Below, piece after piece: positions 29,567 to 40,723 of a DNA stretch of 64,000 nt (its first letter is position 1; every line of letters starts with the position of its first letter). A model generated the notes under the pieces. The model was not told the DNA's origin, made no database searches, and was given only the letters and a program-made list of their open reading frames with translations. The stretch is taken from positions 186,001 to 250,000 of the forward strand of contig JAEUPP010000024.1 of assembly GCA_016790075.1 (NCBI GenBank). Direction: 5' to 3'. The position numbers and the translations under genes are program-made. This stretch comes from Rhodanobacteraceae bacterium. GTDB lineage: Bacteria; Pseudomonadota; Gammaproteobacteria; Xanthomonadales; Rhodanobacteraceae.

Positions 29567-32104
29567 ATGCGCGTTTTCCTCCGCCTGGCCCGCTATGCGC
29601 TCTATCTCGCGCTCAGCGGAATCGTGCTCGGGTGCCTCGCAATAGGCATCGCTTACTGGCTGATTTCCCCTCGCCTGCCTTCGGTCGAGACGTTGCGTGA
29701 CGTCCGCCTGCAGGTGCCGTTGCGAGTCTACACCGCTGACGACAAGCTGATCGCTACCTTTGGCGAGACGCGCCGCATCCCGGTTGCGATAGAGAACGTG
29801 CCGGCCCAGGTCAAGAACGCGTTCCTCGCCGCAGAAGATGCTCGGTTCTACGACCACCCGGGCTTTGACGTTCAGGGTATTTTCCGCGCGGTCTGGCATC
29901 TCGTGCGCACGGGTGGCGACAAGGGCCCCGGCGGATCGACCATTACCCAGCAGGTCGCGCGCAATTTCTTCCTGAGTCCGGAACAGACCTATACGCGCAA
30001 GATTTCCGAGCTCTTTCTGGCCCTGCGCATCGAACGCGCATTGAGCAAGGACGAGATCCTTTCGTTATATCTCAACAAGATTTTCCTTGGGCATCGCGCC
30101 TACGGGGTCGGAGCCGCCGCAGAGTTTTACTACGGCAAGACGCTGCAACAGCTCGACCTCGGCGAAAGCGCAATGCTCGCATCGCTGCCGAAATTCCCCT
30201 CGACGGGCAACCCGCTCTACAACCGCAAGCGCGCTGAAGAGCGCCGCAACTATGTGCTCGCGCGCATGCACGAGAACAATTTCATCAGCGAAGCCGAAAT
30301 GAAAGCGGCGATGGCCGAGCCCGACAAGGCGTATGCCCACGAACCGCCGATCGAGGTCGAAGCGCCGTACCTGGCCGAGATGGTCCGTGTCGAGGCATTG
30401 GAGCGACTGGGCGCAGATGCCCTGACTGACGGCTATAACATCAGGACCACGATTGATAGCCGCATGCAGGAAGCTGCGAACCAGGCCGTGCGAAGCTCGC
30501 TGATCGAGTACGACCGGCGCCATGGATACCGCGGCGCGGAAGCCCATGTCGAACTGCCGGCCGCGGCGAAACCCGAGGATTTCGCGCGCGAACTCGCGAA
30601 TTTTCGCACCATTGCCGGCCTTGTACCGGCCCTGGTCATCGAAACGGGCAAGGAACACGCGCAGCTTTACCTCGCCGACGGCCAGGCCGTGGTGCTGGAC
30701 AAAAAGGCCATCGAGTGGGCGCGCAGCTATCAGAGCGAGAACAGCCGCGGCCCCTCGCCCAAGAGTGTCGACGCCGTGCTCAAGGTCGGCGACATCGTCC
30801 GCGTCGCCCGCGACAACGAGGAAAACTGGACATTGGCACAATTGCCAGCAGCACAAGCCGCGCTGGTTTCGCTAGATCCGGAGGACGGCGCGTTGCGTGC
30901 GCTCGTCGGCGGCTTCAGCTTCGGTCGCAGCAAGTTCAACCGTGCCACGCAAAGCGCGCGCCAGCCAGGGTCCAGCTTCAAGCCCTTTCTTTACGCGGCA
31001 GCGTTCGAGCACGGATTCACGCCCAGCTCCATCCTCAACGATGCGCCGCTGGTATTTCCTGATCCTTCGCGACCCGATGGGGTCTGGGCTCCCTCCAACG
31101 ACGACGACAAGTTCGAGGGGCCGATGCGCCTGCGCGAGGCACTGATCAAATCGGTGAACCTCATTTCGGTTCGCCTGCTCGACGCAATCGGTGTGCGCTA
31201 TGCCCGCGAGTTCATCACACGCTTCGGCTTGCCGCTGGAGGCAATGCCGGAGAATCTCTCCATGTCACTGGGCACGGCCTCGGTGGCGCCGCTGATGATG
31301 GCGCGCGGCTATTCGGTATTCGCCAACGGCGGCATGCTGGTCGACCCCTATTTCGTCGCAAACATCCGTGACCGCGATGGCAAGGAGGTCTATCTGGCCC
31401 AGGCACCACGCGCTTGCCGCACCTGCCCCGAACGCCTGCTCGACGACGCACGCCTCGCGCGCGAGGCACTACCGACCGTAGCGCCGGCAGGCAGCCCACA
31501 GATGCTGCCCGCGGCGTTGCCCGGATCGAGCCCGCGCTTCAACCCGATTCGCAGCGCAAACGCGGCGGCGGTACCGGTTCCGGCTCCGGCAGAACCGGGC
31601 AAGCCGCGCCTCGCCCCGCGCACCCTGGACGTGCGCACAGCACATCTGGTCACCTCGCTCATGCGCGATGTAGTCCGGCGCGGCACTGGCCGCGCGGCGA
31701 TGGATCTCAAACGCAACGATCTCGCAGGCAAGACCGGCACGACCAACGAACACCGTGACGCCTGGTTCAGCGGCTATAACGATCACATCGTAACCAGCGT
31801 CTGGGTGGGCTTTGACGATTTCAGCTCGCTCGGACGAGGCGAGTTCGGAGCGAAGGCCGCTCTGCCTATCTGGATCGACTACATGCGTGTCGCACTCGAC
31901 GGCAAAGCCGAAACGCCTTTCGTGCCGCCTCCAGGCATCAGCACTGCACGCATCGACCCGGCTACCGGTTATCTGGCATCGAGCGACGATAGCAGCGCCA
32001 TCCTCGAAATCTTCAAGAGCGAGGACATCGAGCGCCTGAGCGCACCGCCGCCGGAAGCAGAACTCGACGACGGCCAGCAGGGCGAGGCTTACGACATCTT
32101 CTGA
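29567..32104 (+). CDS. mrcA: Class A penicillin-binding protein 1A (transglycosylase/transpeptidase)
   Basis: An 845-residue bifunctional peptidoglycan synthase anchored by one N-terminal helix (about 11-32). The glycosyltransferase domain carries catalytic Glu90 in EDARFYDH, GGSTITQQVARN and the KIFLG segment. The transpeptidase domain has SxxK at 469-472 (nucleophile Ser469), SVN at 529-531 and KTGT from 722. Between the domains lies the insert typical of PBP1A (about 300-440). The Pro/Ala-rich stretch near 640-690 is a linker. It is divergent from pilMNOPQ, a conserved arrangement in gammaproteobacteria. Its stop shares a base with the start of the next gene. Confidence 0.97.
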   Translation: MRVFLRLARYALYLALSGIVLGCLAIGIAYWLISPRLPSVETLRDVRLQVPLRVYTADDKLIATFGETRRIPVAIENVPAQVKNAFLAAEDARFYDHPGFDVQGIFRAVWHLVRTGGDKGPGGSTITQQVARNFFLSPEQTYTRKISELFLALRIERALSKDEILSLYLNKIFLGHRAYGVGAAAEFYYGKTLQQLDLGESAMLASLPKFPSTGNPLYNRKRAEERRNYVLARMHENNFISEAEMKAAMAEPDKAYAHEPPIEVEAPYLAEMVRVEALERLGADALTDGYNIRTTIDSRMQEAANQAVRSSLIEYDRRHGYRGAEAHVELPAAAKPEDFARELANFRTIAGLVPALVIETGKEHAQLYLADGQAVVLDKKAIEWARSYQSENSRGPSPKSVDAVLKVGDIVRVARDNEENWTLAQLPAAQAALVSLDPEDGALRALVGGFSFGRSKFNRATQSARQPGSSFKPFLYAAAFEHGFTPSSILNDAPLVFPDPSRPDGVWAPSNDDDKFEGPMRLREALIKSVNLISVRLLDAIGVRYAREFITRFGLPLEAMPENLSMSLGTASVAPLMMARGYSVFANGGMLVDPYFVANIRDRDGKEVYLAQAPRACRTCPERLLDDARLAREALPTVAPAGSPQMLPAALPGSSPRFNPIRSANAAAVPVPAPAEPGKPRLAPRTLDVRTAHLVTSLMRDVVRRGTGRAAMDLKRNDLAGKTGTTNEHRDAWFSGYNDHIVTSVWVGFDDFSSLGRGEFGAKAALPIWIDYMRVALDGKAETPFVPPPGISTARIDPATGYLASSDDSSAILEIFKSEDIERLSAPPPEAELDDGQQGEAYDIF

Positions 32105-32745
32105 TGCCCGGGCGACGCAACTCCTTGCAACACCGAAACAGCGACGGTCGACGCGATGACCAGCGCCAGCGTATTGCGGCTGAGGCAGCACGGCTTATCA
32201 GCGAACTGGGTTTGCGCGACTACCACCAGGCCAAGTTGCGCGCCGCCCAGCGGCTTGGCATTCACGACGAACGCCATCTGCCGCGCAACACCGAAATCGA
32301 AGCCGCTCTGCGCGAGTATCAGCGCCTGTTCGGCGGCGAAGAACGCCTTGGCTATCTGCGGCAACTGCGCACGACAGCAGTCGAGGCGCTGCGTTTTTTC
32401 GAACGTTTCGAGCCACGCCTGGTCGGCGCCGTTCTCGACGGCACGGCAGACCAACATTCGGCTGTCTGCCTGCACCTGCACAGCGACGATCGCGACAGCC
32501 TGCCGCTGTTCCTCGCCGAACACGGCATTCCTTACGACCAGACGGACCGCCAGCTACGCTGGTCTGACGCCGGTGCCGAGCGCTTCGACGCCTATCGCTT
32601 CAGCGCCGACGACATTCCTGTGGACCTGACCCTGCTGCCACTGTCGGCACTGCGCCAGGCACCGCTGGACCGCATCGACGGCAAGCCCATGCGCCGCGCC
32701 AATCTTGCCGCGACGCTGCAACTCCTGCGCGAGACGGATACGTAG
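32104..32745 (+). CDS. Uncharacterised protein coupled to PBP1A
   Basis: A 213-residue soluble protein with no signal peptide. The N-terminal half is helical and highly charged (RIAAEAARLISELGLRDYHQ, AKLRAAQRLG, EIEAALREYQRLF). The C-terminal half looks alpha/beta (VGAVLDGTADQHSAVCLHLH, then VDLTLLPLSALRQAPLD) and ends DGKPMRRANLAATLQLL. The pattern faintly suggests a nucleotidyltransferase-like fold, but I see no complete catalytic triad and assign no function. Its ATG overlaps the PBP1A stop (TGATG), so it is translated from the same mRNA, and the terminator at 32771-32804 follows it. Confidence 0.85.
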   Translation: MPGRRNSLQHRNSDGRRDDQRQRIAAEAARLISELGLRDYHQAKLRAAQRLGIHDERHLPRNTEIEAALREYQRLFGGEERLGYLRQLRTTAVEALRFFERFEPRLVGAVLDGTADQHSAVCLHLHSDDRDSLPLFLAEHGIPYDQTDRQLRWSDAGAERFDAYRFSADDIPVDLTLLPLSALRQAPLDRIDGKPMRRANLAATLQLLRETDT

Positions 32746-34723: not shown

Positions 34724-35007
34724 GCCCGAGGTGATCCGGGAAATCGGCGGCCGGGCACTGCCGATGGTCAACCTGACCTGGCAGCTGAACGACGGTGGCG
34801 GCACAGGCCGGATCAGTCGCGGCGCTGCGGCATAATCCCGCGCCCGCGCCAGACAATCTCACCCCCGACTGGGGCAGGTGCCGAGTCTTTATCCCCTTGT
34901 GCATGCGTCTGCGAAACGGGCGTCTGGCAAGCTCGTGGCGTAAGCAGCGGGTGCATAGCCGCGCCGCTGCGGACACTGGTTCAGATCTCTTTCGAGTAAT
35001 ACCGCCG
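34724..35007. other. Upstream region of the MscK-like gene
   Basis: This stretch lies between divergent genes. A plus-strand frame in phase with the downstream gene is open from 34795, but its residues (Arg/Ala-rich, no signal) do not look like coding sequence and precede a perfect signal peptide, so I treat it as untranslated. No clear promoter or hairpin was found. Confidence 0.5.
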
Positions 35008-38000
35008 ATGAAAGCCTGGCTGCGCGCCCCCGCCCTATTGCTGATGCTAGTCCTGCTGACCGGAACCACCGGCGCAGCGCAGCCCCTGCAGGCCTGGCGC
35101 GAACAGCACATGGAGATCCGCGTCGCACCGGATCCCGAGTTCGCGCCAATCGACAGTATTGATGCAAATGGTCAGCACTATGGTCTTGCCGCGGATTATC
35201 TGCGCCTGATTGGCGAACGTTCCGGTCTGCGCTTCCGCATCGTCCCCGTCAGAACCTGGAAAGACGCGCTGCAAGCACTACGCGAGAAACGCGTGGACCT
35301 GCTGTCGAGCGCCTTCGTCTCGCCACAACGCAGCGAGGTTGCCCTGTTCAGCGCCGCCTATCTACGCCTGCCCTGTGCAGCCTTCGTACGGCGCGCCACC
35401 GACATTACGCGCCTGGACCAGATCGACTCACATCGCCTGGCTATCGCCGAGCAACATGTCTGCCGCGAAGCGCTGATCAAGCAGGCGCCAAACGCGAGGA
35501 TTCAGACGTATGCGTCGACCGCGAAAGCCTTGCAGGCGCTAGCCCAGAACAAGGCGGACGTGCTTGTTGGCGATCTGGTTACCGCTCAGGCAGCCGCCAG
35601 CCGCAGCGGCCTGCGCAATCAGCTCGTCGTACTGGGCCAGATCGGCAGCGATGAAGCGCTAGGCTTTGCGATCCGCAAGGACTGGCCAGAACTCAAACAG
35701 ATCCTCGACGCGACCCTGACGGACATCGATGTCGCTGACGAAACCCGGCTGCGCCAGCGCTGGCTCAAGGATCTGCTGCCGGAAGCGGAAGCCGGCGCGG
35801 CGAGCAGCGCCGACTCTCTGCCGGCCAGCGTTGCAGCGGCGGTGAAGACCACACGCCAGGCGCTGGCAGAGGCCAAGCCCACCGACGCGCAACAGACCGA
35901 GGCGATAAAGAACTTGCTCGATACGGCGCAGGCTGACGACGAGCGCGCGACTGCGCTCGCCAGCGAGCTGCGCACCCAGCGCGCCGCAGCCGCTACCGCG
36001 GAAGCCGACGCGGAAACCCTGGAGCAGGAACTGCTGCAGGACAATACCGCCGCACTGCTGGCCTGGCGCGCCAGCCTGTCCGAGCGCGCCAGTGTGACCC
36101 AGCTTGAGGCACAACGCAGCGACGAGCGCGCCGCATTGGCCGGTGCTCAATCCGACGTCGCGCAACTGCAGGTGCGCGTCGCCGGACAACACGAGCGTCC
36201 GGCGCAGATCCGCGACGAGCTCAAGCAAGCGCAGGCCGACGCGGAGAAAAACCGCCAGCCCGCCGGCGCAGAACATAACGCACCCGCGCTGTTGATCGAG
36301 GCGGATAGGCTGCGGCGCCTGGCAGCGCTACGGCTTGCATTGGCACGCATCGCTTTGCTGGAAGAGGAGCTGCGCAACTACGAGCCACTGCTGCGGCTGG
36401 AATCGGCGCGGCTGCGGCTGCGGCAGCGCGAAGTCAGCGAGCGCCAGCACAAGGTCGATGCGCTGCAGAGCCTGATCCTCGACCGCACACGTGCGCTGGC
36501 ACTCAGCTTGAGCACGCGGCTGCAGGGCGAGGCCGCCGACATGGCGCAACATAACCCGCTGGTGCGTGATGTCGCCCGGCAGAATGCGACGTTCGGGCTT
36601 GAGCTCGTGCAGCGCGTCGCGCAACTGGCGGAAGTTCGTGAGAGCCGCGACGCCTATGCGCGTCTGCGCCGCGAAACAGCGCTGGCTCTCAAGAACACCT
36701 CCGAGCGCGTGAAATACAGCGGTGTCAGTGAGGCAGTCGGCCTGATCCTGCTGGCGGAACGGCGCAAGCTGCAGCCGGTGCCGGTGCTCAAGCGCAAGCT
36801 GGCGGCACTGCAGACCGAACTCGCGCAGACGCGCATCGCATTGGTCGAGCTGCGTGAAGCCGGTGAATGGCTGGCGGATCCTTCGGTCCCGGTAGCCGCC
36901 GAGCTGCGCCGGCTCCCCCCCGACGCCGTAGCCGGCGACAGCATGCTGCGGCAGACGCTGTACCGGCTGTTTGCCACACGCGCTGAAGTCGTGCCCCAGC
37001 TGAGTCTGGTGCAGAACCGGCTGGCCGACAGCCTCGCTGACGCGGAACAGGAACTGACCGGCCTCGTACAGGACACGGCGACCTTGCGCGACCTGCTCGA
37101 CGCACGCCTGTTGTGGACGCCTAGCCACGCGCCGCTCGATCGTCGCGTGCTCGCGGAGTCCGTGCGCGGCGCACTCGACACGCTGCAGCCGGGGCGCTGG
37201 TGGGACACCCTGCGCCAGACAGCGCGCCTGACCTGGTCTGAGCCGTGGCTGCTGCTGTCGGGCAGCGCGCTGTTCGTCGCGCTGTGGTACTGGCGCCGCC
37301 GCGTGCCAGCGCAGCTGGACAGGCTAGCACAGCCGACCCGGCGCATTCGCACCGACCGCTATCGTCTCAGCGGACAGGCCCTGCTGCTGAACCTTGCTGC
37401 CGCCCTGCCCTGGCCCGCGCTGATATGGCTGTTGTCGCGCCTGCTCGCGCGGGCCGGTGAAACCGGCTATCCCTTTGCCGACGCGCTCAGCCTTGCGTTT
37501 GGTGAACTTGTCGCACCACTGTACGCGCTGGAATTCCTGCGCTGGCTCAATGCCGACAAAGGGCTGGCTGCGGCGCATTTCCGCTGGTCGCAGGGACGCC
37601 GCCAGGCGCTGGACCTGTTGCGGCGCTGGATGAAAGGCGCGTTCCTGCCGGTGCAATTTTTCCTTTCTCTTTATTTCTACTATGGCGAACAGCTAGCCAA
37701 TGCGGACCTCGCCCGGGTCGTGTTCGTCTCGGCCAGCCTGCTGATGGCCTGGCTGTGCTGGCGCGTACTCGCGCCGGGTGCCCTGTGGCCGCAGCGCAGC
37801 GGCCAGAACGAACCAGTACGTGCGCGCCAGCTGCTGCGCCTGGTGTTGACAGCGCAAGCCCTCGGTTCCGCCCTGCTCGCGATCGCGGGTTATTTCCTCA
37901 CCGCGATGGCATTGGCGGCTCCGTTCATCGAATCGGCTATCGCGTTCCTCGCCATCAGTGTGCTCAACGGCATGGCGCTGCGCTGGCTATCGCTGGGTGA

Positions 38001-39117
38001 ACGCCGGCTCGCACTCAAGCGGATGGAGGACAAACGCGACGAACTCAGCACGCGCGATGATCCGGACCTCGAATCACGCCCTGAATTTGCCGCTGAAGCG
38101 GAACAGAGCACGCTCGCCAGCATCAACCAGCAGACCCGCCGCCTGCTGCGCGCATTGACCGTAGTCGTGCTCGCCGGCGTGCTGCTGTGGGTCTGGTCAG
38201 GGGTTACCCCGGCGCTGGCCTATCTGGGCGATATCGGAGCCTGGCAGACGAGTTATGTAGCCGATGGCAAGAACGTCACCGTACAGGTCACTCTGCGTTC
38301 GCTGCTGTTTGCTGCCGTAGCGCTGATGCTGACCTGGATAGCGACACGCAACATTCCGGGCCTGCTTGAAATCGGCGTCCTGCGCCGCCTGGACGTCGAC
38401 GCACCGACGCGCTACGCGATTACCGCCGTAGCGCGCTACGCGCTCGCGATCGTCGGCACCGTGCTGGGATTGTCGTTGCTCGGCTTGCGCTGGGGCCAAC
38501 TGCAATGGATGGCCGCCGCGCTGACCGTAGGCCTCGGCTTCGGATTGCAGGAAATCTTCGCCAACTTCGTCTCGGGTCTGATCGTATTGTTTGAACGGCC
38601 GATCCGGGTCGGGGACATCATCACGATCCGGGGAATCGAAGGAACGGTCACGCGCATCCGCACGCGCGCAACCACGATCGTCGACTGGGACAACAAGGAA
38701 GTCGTGATACCGAACAAGACCTTCATCACCGATCAGCTCACGAACTGGACGCTGAGTGACACCACCACGCGTGTCGTGGTCAAGGTCAGCATTGCCTACG
38801 AGAACGATCCCGACCAGGTGCGTGCGCTGTTGCTCGAACTCGCGCGCGCGCATCCTAAGGTGCTCAAGGAGCCGGGTCCGAATTGCTGGTGTGTCGCATT
38901 GGCGGCGAACTCGCTCGACTTCGAGTTGCGTGTATTCGTCGGCACCACCCTGGAACGCAGCGTCGTGCGCAACGACCTGCATAGCGCCATCCTGCGCGAG
39001 TTCCGCGCGCGCAACATCACCATCTCCGCAACGCCGCAGATGGACGTGACCTTGCATCAGCCGGCGGCCGGCGCAACCGCTGCGGCTGCCGTGAACAATG
39101 GGATTCGCGCGGGCTAG
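35008..39117 (+). CDS. MscK-type mechanosensitive channel with N-terminal solute-binding domain
   Basis: A 1369-residue inner-membrane protein. ATG 35008 gives a clean signal peptide (MKAWLRAPALLLMLVLLTG, cut near GAAQ). Residues about 30-260 form a periplasmic binding-protein fold of the SBP_bac_3 type (IRVAPDPEFAPIDSIDANGQ, YGLAADYLRLIGERSGLRFR, LREKRVDLLSSAF, LGFAIRKDWPELKQILD). A long coiled coil (about 265-730) follows, as in the MscK periplasmic region, then about 11 transmembrane helices (from 745). The MscS core begins near 1174 (VGLGFGLQEIFANFVSGLIV, FERPIRVGDIITIRG, VIPNKTFITDQLTNW). The unusual feature is the ligand-binding domain at the front, suggesting gating or modulation by a periplasmic solute. 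Its stop shares the CTAG with the convergent nucleoside hydrolase. Confidence 0.9.
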   Translation: MKAWLRAPALLLMLVLLTGTTGAAQPLQAWREQHMEIRVAPDPEFAPIDSIDANGQHYGLAADYLRLIGERSGLRFRIVPVRTWKDALQALREKRVDLLSSAFVSPQRSEVALFSAAYLRLPCAAFVRRATDITRLDQIDSHRLAIAEQHVCREALIKQAPNARIQTYASTAKALQALAQNKADVLVGDLVTAQAAASRSGLRNQLVVLGQIGSDEALGFAIRKDWPELKQILDATLTDIDVADETRLRQRWLKDLLPEAEAGAASSADSLPASVAAAVKTTRQALAEAKPTDAQQTEAIKNLLDTAQADDERATALASELRTQRAAAATAEADAETLEQELLQDNTAALLAWRASLSERASVTQLEAQRSDERAALAGAQSDVAQLQVRVAGQHERPAQIRDELKQAQADAEKNRQPAGAEHNAPALLIEADRLRRLAALRLALARIALLEEELRNYEPLLRLESARLRLRQREVSERQHKVDALQSLILDRTRALALSLSTRLQGEAADMAQHNPLVRDVARQNATFGLELVQRVAQLAEVRESRDAYARLRRETALALKNTSERVKYSGVSEAVGLILLAERRKLQPVPVLKRKLAALQTELAQTRIALVELREAGEWLADPSVPVAAELRRLPPDAVAGDSMLRQTLYRLFATRAEVVPQLSLVQNRLADSLADAEQELTGLVQDTATLRDLLDARLLWTPSHAPLDRRVLAESVRGALDTLQPGRWWDTLRQTARLTWSEPWLLLSGSALFVALWYWRRRVPAQLDRLAQPTRRIRTDRYRLSGQALLLNLAAALPWPALIWLLSRLLARAGETGYPFADALSLAFGELVAPLYALEFLRWLNADKGLAAAHFRWSQGRRQALDLLRRWMKGAFLPVQFFLSLYFYYGEQLANADLARVVFVSASLLMAWLCWRVLAPGALWPQRSGQNEPVRARQLLRLVLTAQALGSALLAIAGYFLTAMALAAPFIESAIAFLAISVLNGMALRWLSLGERRLALKRMEDKRDELSTRDDPDLESRPEFAAEAEQSTLASINQQTRRLLRALTVVVLAGVLLWVWSGVTPALAYLGDIGAWQTSYVADGKNVTVQVTLRSLLFAAVALMLTWIATRNIPGLLEIGVLRRLDVDAPTRYAITAVARYALAIVGTVLGLSLLGLRWGQLQWMAAALTVGLGFGLQEIFANFVSGLIVLFERPIRVGDIITIRGIEGTVTRIRTRATTIVDWDNKEVVIPNKTFITDQLTNWTLSDTTTRVVVKVSIAYENDPDQVRALLLELARAHPKVLKEPGPNCWCVALAANSLDFELRVFVGTTLERSVVRNDLHSAILREFRARNITISATPQMDVTLHQPAAGATAAAAVNNGIRAG

Positions 39118-40135: not shown

Positions 40136-40723
40136 TCACTCGAACGAGTCCGTGAACAACAGTGCGCTGTCCCATTCGACGTGATCGAAGTAGCAGTAGC
40201 TATAACCCGGTATGGCGGCGGCTGTCTGGCGATGGATCAGCGACACCCAGGCCGCACCGCTGCCAGGCGGTGCCGAGCGGTTGATCTCCAAGGTCTCAAA
40301 GCCGGCATTGTTCAGCGTGTTCACGGCCGTAGCCGCAAGCAGCACACCGGCACTTGTGTTGCAGTCAGTACGATTCAACACCTGAATGCGCAGTTCGCAG
40401 CTGGCATCAGCCTTGAGCTGCGAGGACACCGCCGCACGCAAGGTAAACGGGCCCGGCGCAAGCTTGACGCACTGCGCCCAGAAGTCCTCGCGTGCACCGC
40501 TGCGGTAGTTGCGTACACGGCCACTGCCGGCCGTGGGCGAGCCGACGCTGGCATCCCAATACAACTCACCACCGGCACCGCTGTCGAGGTACCAACGCCA
40601 ATTGGTCGGTGCCGGCGCCGTAACGGGATCGGTGTCGAAATCGGGATTGCGCAAGGTTGCCAAGGGCGGAGGCAAAGGCTCCATCCAGGCAGCGGCTAAC
40701 AGAAGACTGGCAAGGGCTTGCAT
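40136..40723 (-). CDS. Small exported protein with C-terminal F-x-x-x-F-E tail
   Basis: A 195-residue protein with a short signal-like N-terminus (QALASLLLAAAW). The mature part resembles a beta-sandwich (carbohydrate-binding-like) domain: LRNPDFDTDP followed by W-rich strands, GPFTLRAAVSSQLKADASCE, and a paired-Cys region. It ends SALLFTDSFE, similar to the tails of the proteins ending at 7337 and 12144. It stands alone between recG and the nucleoside hydrolase on the same strand. No enzyme motif is visible; function unknown. Confidence 0.78.
   Translation of the reverse strand: MQALASLLLAAAWMEPLPPPLATLRNPDFDTDPVTAPAPTNWRWYLDSGAGGELYWDASVGSPTAGSGRVRNYRSGAREDFWAQCVKLAPGPFTLRAAVSSQLKADASCELRIQVLNRTDCNTSAGVLLAATAVNTLNNAGFETLEINRSAPPGSGAAWVSLIHRQTAAAIPGYSYCYFDHVEWDSALLFTDSFE

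Follow-up and report, generated by a model that had tools for sequence, protein, structure and literature searches.

A mechanosensitive channel of MscK-type layout fused to an N-terminal Venus-flytrap domain in the genus Tahibacter

The window analysed here is a stretch of 64,000 nucleotides from a Rhodanobacteraceae bacterium (assembly GCA_016790075.1, contig JAEUPP010000024.1, positions 186,001 to 250,000), and the gene under study encodes an MscK-type mechanosensitive channel preceded by a solute-binding protein (SBP) domain of the SBP_bac_3 family, which is predicted to fold as a Venus flytrap (VFT). The gene occupies positions 35008-39117 of the plus strand, where an uninterrupted frame running from 34795 to 39117 contains an ATG at 35008 and yields a protein of 1369 amino acids. 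A preliminary description of this DNA had placed both modules in one unbroken frame, and this holds: no stop codon or frameshift lies between the SBP_bac_3 and channel domains, and the arrangement recurs in seven other genomes of the genus Tahibacter. The proportion of G and C nucleotides shows no step at the domain junction. An assembly artefact or frameshift is ruled out as the source of the fusion by the identical uninterrupted frame in the 8 genus genomes searched.

The domain composition was read from profile matches, and the coordinates of all features are collected in Table 1. The Pfam profile for SBP_bac_3 (PF00497) matches residues 37-254 with an E-value of 3.9e-19 and 69.1 bits against a cut-off of 26.4, in agreement with the span of about residues 30-260 proposed earlier. 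Further along the chain, MscS_porin (PF12795, residues 285-520) reaches 36.5 bits, only just over its cut-off of 34.4, and MscS_TM (PF12794) scores 221.7 bits. The MscS core is recognized by MS_channel_2nd (PF00924, residues 1183-1248, 81.9 bits) and MS_channel_3rd (PF21082, residues 1256-1339, 47.0 bits), with MS_channel_1st (residues 1142-1181) just under its cut-off at 20.4 versus 23.1 bits, and is supported by matches to MscK and MscM in the Protein Data Bank. The periplasmic helical region aligns to E. coli MscK (7uw5), and its helices appear in the predicted model. The 7uw5 chain carries Ser at position 924, being the G924S mutant of the MscK structure report (PMC9653487). Using NCBIfam, residues 272-1356 match MscK with 596 bits, ahead of MscM with 407 bits, which is below the cut-off of 991 bits set for the MscK equivalog NF008438. 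Judged by these profiles, the protein belongs to the MscS superfamily and has an MscK-type layout, to which a member of the SBP_bac_3 domain family has been added. No kinase domain was found among the Pfam matches up to an E-value of 0.1, which sets the protein apart from BvgS-type sensor kinases. The relatives within the genus also begin, as judged by eye, with hydrophobic, signal-peptide-like segments near the same place.

Structure prediction and a comparison of the ligand pocket, both suggested in the preliminary description, were carried out for the VFT. The AlphaFold2 model, built from 43 sequences, has a mean predicted local distance difference test (pLDDT) score of 95.2. When it is compared with solved structures using Foldseek, the top match is the periplasmic domain of RmcA (7ejg; E-value 7.4e-26, TM score 0.89, 31% identity), followed by BvgS and then by ancestral and bacterial amino-acid SBPs; EvgS ranks lower among the solved VFT relatives than RmcA and BvgS. 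A phmmer search has BvgS and 7ejg as its top matches, with several ATP-binding cassette (ABC) binding proteins among the matches. In a scan of genome contigs, 44 loci were found, 8 with the channel and 36 without, and all seven of the non-channel relatives that were scanned with Pfam are signalling proteins. On both sequence and model, the VFT resembles receptor-type domains such as those of RmcA and BvgS more closely than it does transport SBPs. Capture of a transport SBP from an ABC system is not favoured, since receptor VFTs head the structure list and the seven scanned relatives all signal. RmcA is reported to recognise L-arginine via its periplasmic domain (PMC9028604; PMC8846402).

The contacts described as common to amino-acid SBPs, with LAOBP as the reference, are Arg77, Ser72, Asp11, Asp161 and two aromatic residues (PMC5431781). 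Mapped by alignment, they correspond to Arg108, Phe103, Asp42, Asp189, Phe45 and Trp84 of the present protein. These positions were compared between 14 fused proteins, which are mutually related and not independent, and 55 other SBP domains, 7 of which were scanned with Pfam. Arg108, Asp42 and Asp189 are invariant in the 8 Tahibacter proteins. Position 189 is acidic in 13 of the 14 fused proteins versus 8 of the 55 others (Asp in 7, Glu in 1), and two fused proteins of a Lysobacterales family labelled f12 have Leu in place of Phe45 and Ala or Phe in place of Trp84. RmcA has equivalents of Asp42, Trp84, Arg108 and Asp189 in the phmmer alignment. By this comparison the pocket is largely intact and of amino-acid type, with one main contact, the Ser/Thr, lost. 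The presence of both Asp189 and Arg108 points to a ligand whose amino and carboxyl groups are free, with arginine as the first candidate solely by reason of RmcA. Two cysteines elsewhere in the VFT follow the genus boundary (Table 1), which suggests a genus-specific Cys123-Cys152 disulfide.

Table 1. Features of the fused channel gene, with protein residues and positions in the window
Feature	Residues	Position (strand)	Basis and remarks
Signal peptide	1-24	35008..35079 (+)	Judged by eye from a basic beginning, a hydrophobic core and a GAA/Q end
SBP_bac_3 VFT domain	28-258	35089..35781 (+)	Pfam PF00497 and predicted model
Asp42	42	35131..35133 (+)	LAOBP Asp11 (ligand side-chain contact); 14/14 fused, 44/55 other SBP domains
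Trp84	84	35257..35259 (+)	LAOBP Phe52 (aromatic sandwich); 8/8 Tahibacter; fused: Trp 12/14, Phe 1, Ala 1
Arg108	108	35329..35331 (+)	LAOBP Arg77 (alpha-carboxylate contact); 14/14 fused, 43/55 other SBP domains
Cys123	123	35374..35376 (+)	Possible partner of Cys152; 8/8 Tahibacter, 0/6 other fusions
Cys152	152	35461..35463 (+)	Possible partner of Cys123; 8/8 Tahibacter, 0/6 other fusions
Asp189	189	35572..35574 (+)	LAOBP Asp161 (alpha-amino contact); fused: Asp 12/14, Glu 1, Asn 1
Linker	~259-275	35782..35832 (+)	Ala/Ser/Gly/Pro-rich
Periplasmic helical region		35833..37107 (+)	MscS_porin plus the helices after it; corresponds to the MscK periplasmic domain
MscS_TM membrane domain	746-1079	37243..38244 (+)	Pfam, E-value 1.6e-65
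MscS core	1142-1339	38431..39024 (+)	Pore helix, beta domain, C-terminal domain
Pore-helix glycines	Gly1175/1177/1179	38530..38544 (+)	Aligned to MscK 922/924/926 (7uw5 alignment)

Selection on the parts of the protein was estimated as the ratio of nonsynonymous to synonymous differences (pN/pS) across 28 Tahibacter pairs. The ratio is 0.344 for the VFT, 0.455 for the porin region, 0.424 for residues 521-745, 0.393 for the membrane domain and 0.223 for the MscS core, with values of 0.690 for the linker (residues 255-284) and 0.792 for the signal peptide. The VFT is under purifying selection, held more tightly than the remaining periplasmic and outer membrane-domain parts and more loosely than the MscS core, and 111 of its 230 positions are invariant in Tahibacter. 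Decay of the domain is disfavoured at such a ratio.

Across 61 genomes, comprising the window's own and 60 relatives, the fusion is present in all 8 of the genus Tahibacter, the other seven proteins being 61-82% identical to that of the window. These genomes include T. aquaticus, T. harae, T. soli, T. caeni and two metagenome-assembled genomes (MAGs). The best matches outside the genus begin at residue 258 at the earliest, or are separate SBP or MscS matches. A sample of the family has an MscK match (E-value up to 1e-60) in 22 of 147 genomes: 8 are Tahibacter, all fused, and the 14 others begin at residue 257 or later, two of these being partial. An SBP profile search of 13 of the 14 unfused family genomes found no SBP. 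At the level of the order, 30 of 299 genomes match and 8 are fused, namely 3 Tahibacter and 5 of the second Lysobacterales family, f12. When f12 is searched directly, 5 of its 9 genomes match, all 5 with a fused copy; in this set one fused genome carries an unfused copy as well, and one is contaminated at 7%. The survey of Lysobacterales envisaged at the outset thus places the architecture in 8/8 Tahibacter and in these 5 genomes of the second family. The class sample (369 genomes) gives 49 matches with 3 fused, two Tahibacter and a further gammaproteobacterium, G400 (MAG MO_133.B26), and the phylum sample (398 genomes) gives 84 matches with 2 fused, both Tahibacter. Some of the sample matches are fragments whose N-terminus is not visible (e.g. 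G040, G989, G417).

The SBP profile, run over the MscK frames, matches 16 frames representing 14 distinct proteins and none of the 59 others, some of which are duplicates or fragments and one of which is a cut piece of the gene studied here. An extra N-terminal SBP was sought in other large MscK frames (L025, L053, L054, L055, L057) and none was found. Fused and unfused MscK-type genes coexist in G938 (L106, L149) and in G400 (L021, L039). No account of this fusion was found in the open-access literature, judged by titles and the beginnings of abstracts, which is not proof of absence.

The number of related valves was counted by a PF00924 search of 7 of the 8 Tahibacter genomes, all but G002. 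The fused protein is the only one found in the window's genome (G000, 95.65% complete), G005 and G007, the other four genomes having 2, 2, 2 and 3 PF00924 proteins, and one MscL is present in all seven. E. coli has six MscS-family (PF00924) proteins, far more than one per genome. From these counts, the sole MscS-type valve of some Tahibacter species appears to bear a sensor domain.

The gene is flanked by gltA and an inosine-uridine nucleoside hydrolase gene, the latter identified by Pfam. Both flankers lie on the opposite strand, and from this orientation the fused gene is probably transcribed alone. The neighbours that we take to be gltA, mrcA, recG, ridA and spoT were named from the window translations. 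In another genome of the family (G022), an unfused orthologue lies in the same order of mrcA, conserved hypothetical gene, gltA, mscK, nucleoside hydrolase, recG and ridA, and mscK is separated from the hydrolase gene by about 2 kb; a further genome (G015) retains gltA, mscK, hydrolase and recG at wider spacing. Two neighbouring proteins have no Pfam match up to an E-value of 0.01. One, of 213 amino acids (32104-32745), lies between mrcA and gltA and is shared with the five Tahibacter loci that reach that far (L061-L065, 69-90% identity) and with G022 (57%). The other, of 195 amino acids (40136-40723, minus strand), occurs in the Tahibacter loci L060-L065 (54-86% identity).

The history of the fusion was followed separately for channel and SBP. 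In a tree of 58 channel proteins, from which duplicates and fragments had been left out (loci 15-20, 47, 48, 50-69, 94, 121), the fused/unfused label takes 5 changes, at least 4 of them forced by starred branches; a second channel tree takes 4 changes. A single clade of the 13 Lysobacterales fusions is rejected for the channel by the approximately unbiased test (p-AU 5e-5), as run on a quick LG+G4 tree that used columns from residue 520 onward, after removal of nine rows that were long or peripheral, and with MO_133 outside the group. In the SBP tree the fused label takes 3 changes, and 2% of the bootstrap trees unite the 14 fused SBPs, whose placement in one clade is not rejected (p-AU 0.475). 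The Tahibacter SBPs join those of G922 and G932 with support of 98/69. A close SBP donor was not seen in the window's genome and the 60 relatives, where the best match outside the genus is 31% identical (G052, E-value 4.8e-36). Together, the unfused orthologue at the locus and the 5 or 4 changes on the channel trees imply that the domain comes and goes in evolution. The present distribution may reflect an old fusion that was lost repeatedly, more than one acquisition of a similar module, or transfer of the domain.

The preferred reading, to which we assign a probability of roughly 0.5, is that the gene encodes an MscK-type channel in which each subunit bears an exported VFT and the tension threshold is modulated by an amino-acid-like ligand. 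On the pattern of E. coli MscK, the channel would be a heptamer whose periplasmic part makes up a gating ring. Binding of a small amino-acid-like ligand would close the flytraps, and closure would affect how the ring packs or how freely it moves, and thereby shift the membrane tension at which the pore opens. The channel would then be a tension sensor with chemical gain control. Directly shown are a fused and conserved gene, a VFT fold by prediction, a pocket that is largely intact and a pore motif of MscS type; ligand binding and coupling of VFT to channel are what we infer beyond them. The VFT is joined to the start of the region that corresponds to the MscK periplasmic domain. E. coli MscK is reported to open under tension only with K+ or similar ions, sensed from the periplasmic side, and to form a heptamer whose periplasmic ring is linked to the membrane domain and widens as the channel opens (PMC9653487). 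The idea in the preliminary description that an external solute regulates the channel is kept in this conditional form: the receptor-type VFT, the pocket contacts and, by analogy, the ion co-gating of MscK speak for it, and the apparently loose linker speaks against it. A more far-reaching version, which we hold only tentatively, has the channel co-gated by ligand and tension, a bacterial counterpart of glutamate receptors on an MscS pore, with an external or self-released amino acid setting the threshold of a valve that in some Tahibacter species would be the only one of MscS type. If so, the VFT could serve as an autoreceptor that senses solutes which the channel itself lets out.

Several observations weigh against tension gating tuned through the VFT. 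In the E. coli MscK structure, the ring that is resolved comprises no more than the C-terminal part of the periplasmic domain (PMC9653487), so the VFT may sit far from it. Related MscK genes lack a VFT, which is therefore not needed for channel function as such. The linker is poorly conserved and has almost no regular structure in the periplasmic model. That model is weak evidence, being shallow (9 sequences; mean pLDDT of 75.6) and of low confidence over a stretch that extends beyond the linker to the end of the VFT, a part well predicted in the deeper model. The linkers of BvgS, unlike this one, are reported to be helical (PMC5829827). In the pocket, Asp189 is replaced by Asn in the MO_133 fusion, and the LAOBP Ser72 position is occupied by Phe103 in 8/8 Tahibacter proteins, with Ser/Thr in 22 of the 55 other SBP domains. 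A Ser/Thr here is said to help hold the ligand in LAOBP and CdgH (PMC5431781); RmcA, which has Met at this position in the phmmer alignment, is likewise off the Ser/Thr pattern.

The altered contact also fits a VFT that works without a small ligand, as a conformational module sensing pH, ions or the state of the envelope, as some VFTs of the BvgS family may. BvgS and EvgS provide some of the closest solved structures, and for BvgS a closed, membrane-proximal VFT2, a mobile VFT1 and an output set by periplasmic conformation are reported (PMC4352136). The invariance of Arg108, Asp42 and Asp189 in Tahibacter and the reported recognition of L-arginine by RmcA, the nearest solved structure by fold, argue the other way, and we regard a ligand-free module as unlikely. 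A similarly low weight is given to a docking or scavenging role, in which the VFT would bind a solute or partner near the channel and leave gating unchanged. The loose linker, the position of the VFT at the far N-terminal end and the wide use of SBP_bac_3 domains by transporters would all suit such a role, but the fusion partner is a channel and not an importer, the nearest solved relatives are receptors, and the seven scanned non-channel relatives have signalling outputs. A VFT that has no function, as a relic or a neutral addition, is very improbable: the unfused orthologue at the same locus and the repeated changes on the channel trees speak for it, yet the domain is held more strictly than the porin and membrane parts and almost half of its positions are invariant in the genus.

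Coupling of an external ligand to tension in MscK-type channels is an open question on which this fusion could bear, and binding of K+ to the periplasmic ring was only proposed in the 2022 MscK structure paper (PMC9653487). Here the putative ligand domain is recognisable, removable and mutable, which would make chemo-mechanical co-gating directly testable, and natural fused and unfused orthologues are on offer at one locus. Tuning of the channel by the VFT would link nutrient-type receptors to osmotic release and provide another route by which an SBP clamshell is joined to an ion channel.

Among known systems, the protein shares with E. coli MscK (7uw5) and MscM the MscS_porin, MscS_TM and MscS core domains, the aligned pore glycines and a large periplasmic part. 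Co-gating by tension and external ions is reported for E. coli MscK (PMC9653487). As the preliminary description had said, E. coli MscK has no such VFT: when the query starts at residue 264, residue 285 of the present protein is paired with MscK residue 53, and when the complete protein is used, the match to the NCBIfam MscK profile begins at residue 272, at profile position 34. Unlike E. coli-type MscK, the protein also falls below the equivalog cut-off. With the receptors RmcA (7ejg), BvgS and EvgS it shares the VFT fold and a periplasmic sensor, but their outputs are cyclic di-GMP enzymes or histidine kinases whereas the output here is an ion channel. Synechocystis GluR0 and the ionotropic glutamate receptors also place an SBP-class ligand-binding clamshell on an ion channel, with a K+-channel-like pore loop that interrupts the clamshell between its two lobes. 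In the present protein, by contrast, the clamshell is continuous (residues 37-254) and precedes an MscS-type pore. GluR0 is reported to take part in cell volume control (PMC13099474). The likeness to these receptors is an analogy and not channel homology, and the protein is not a glutamate receptor. By that analogy, it would work like a cross between MscK, which responds to tension and external solute, and GluR0 or the ionotropic glutamate receptors, which carry a clamshell on a channel.

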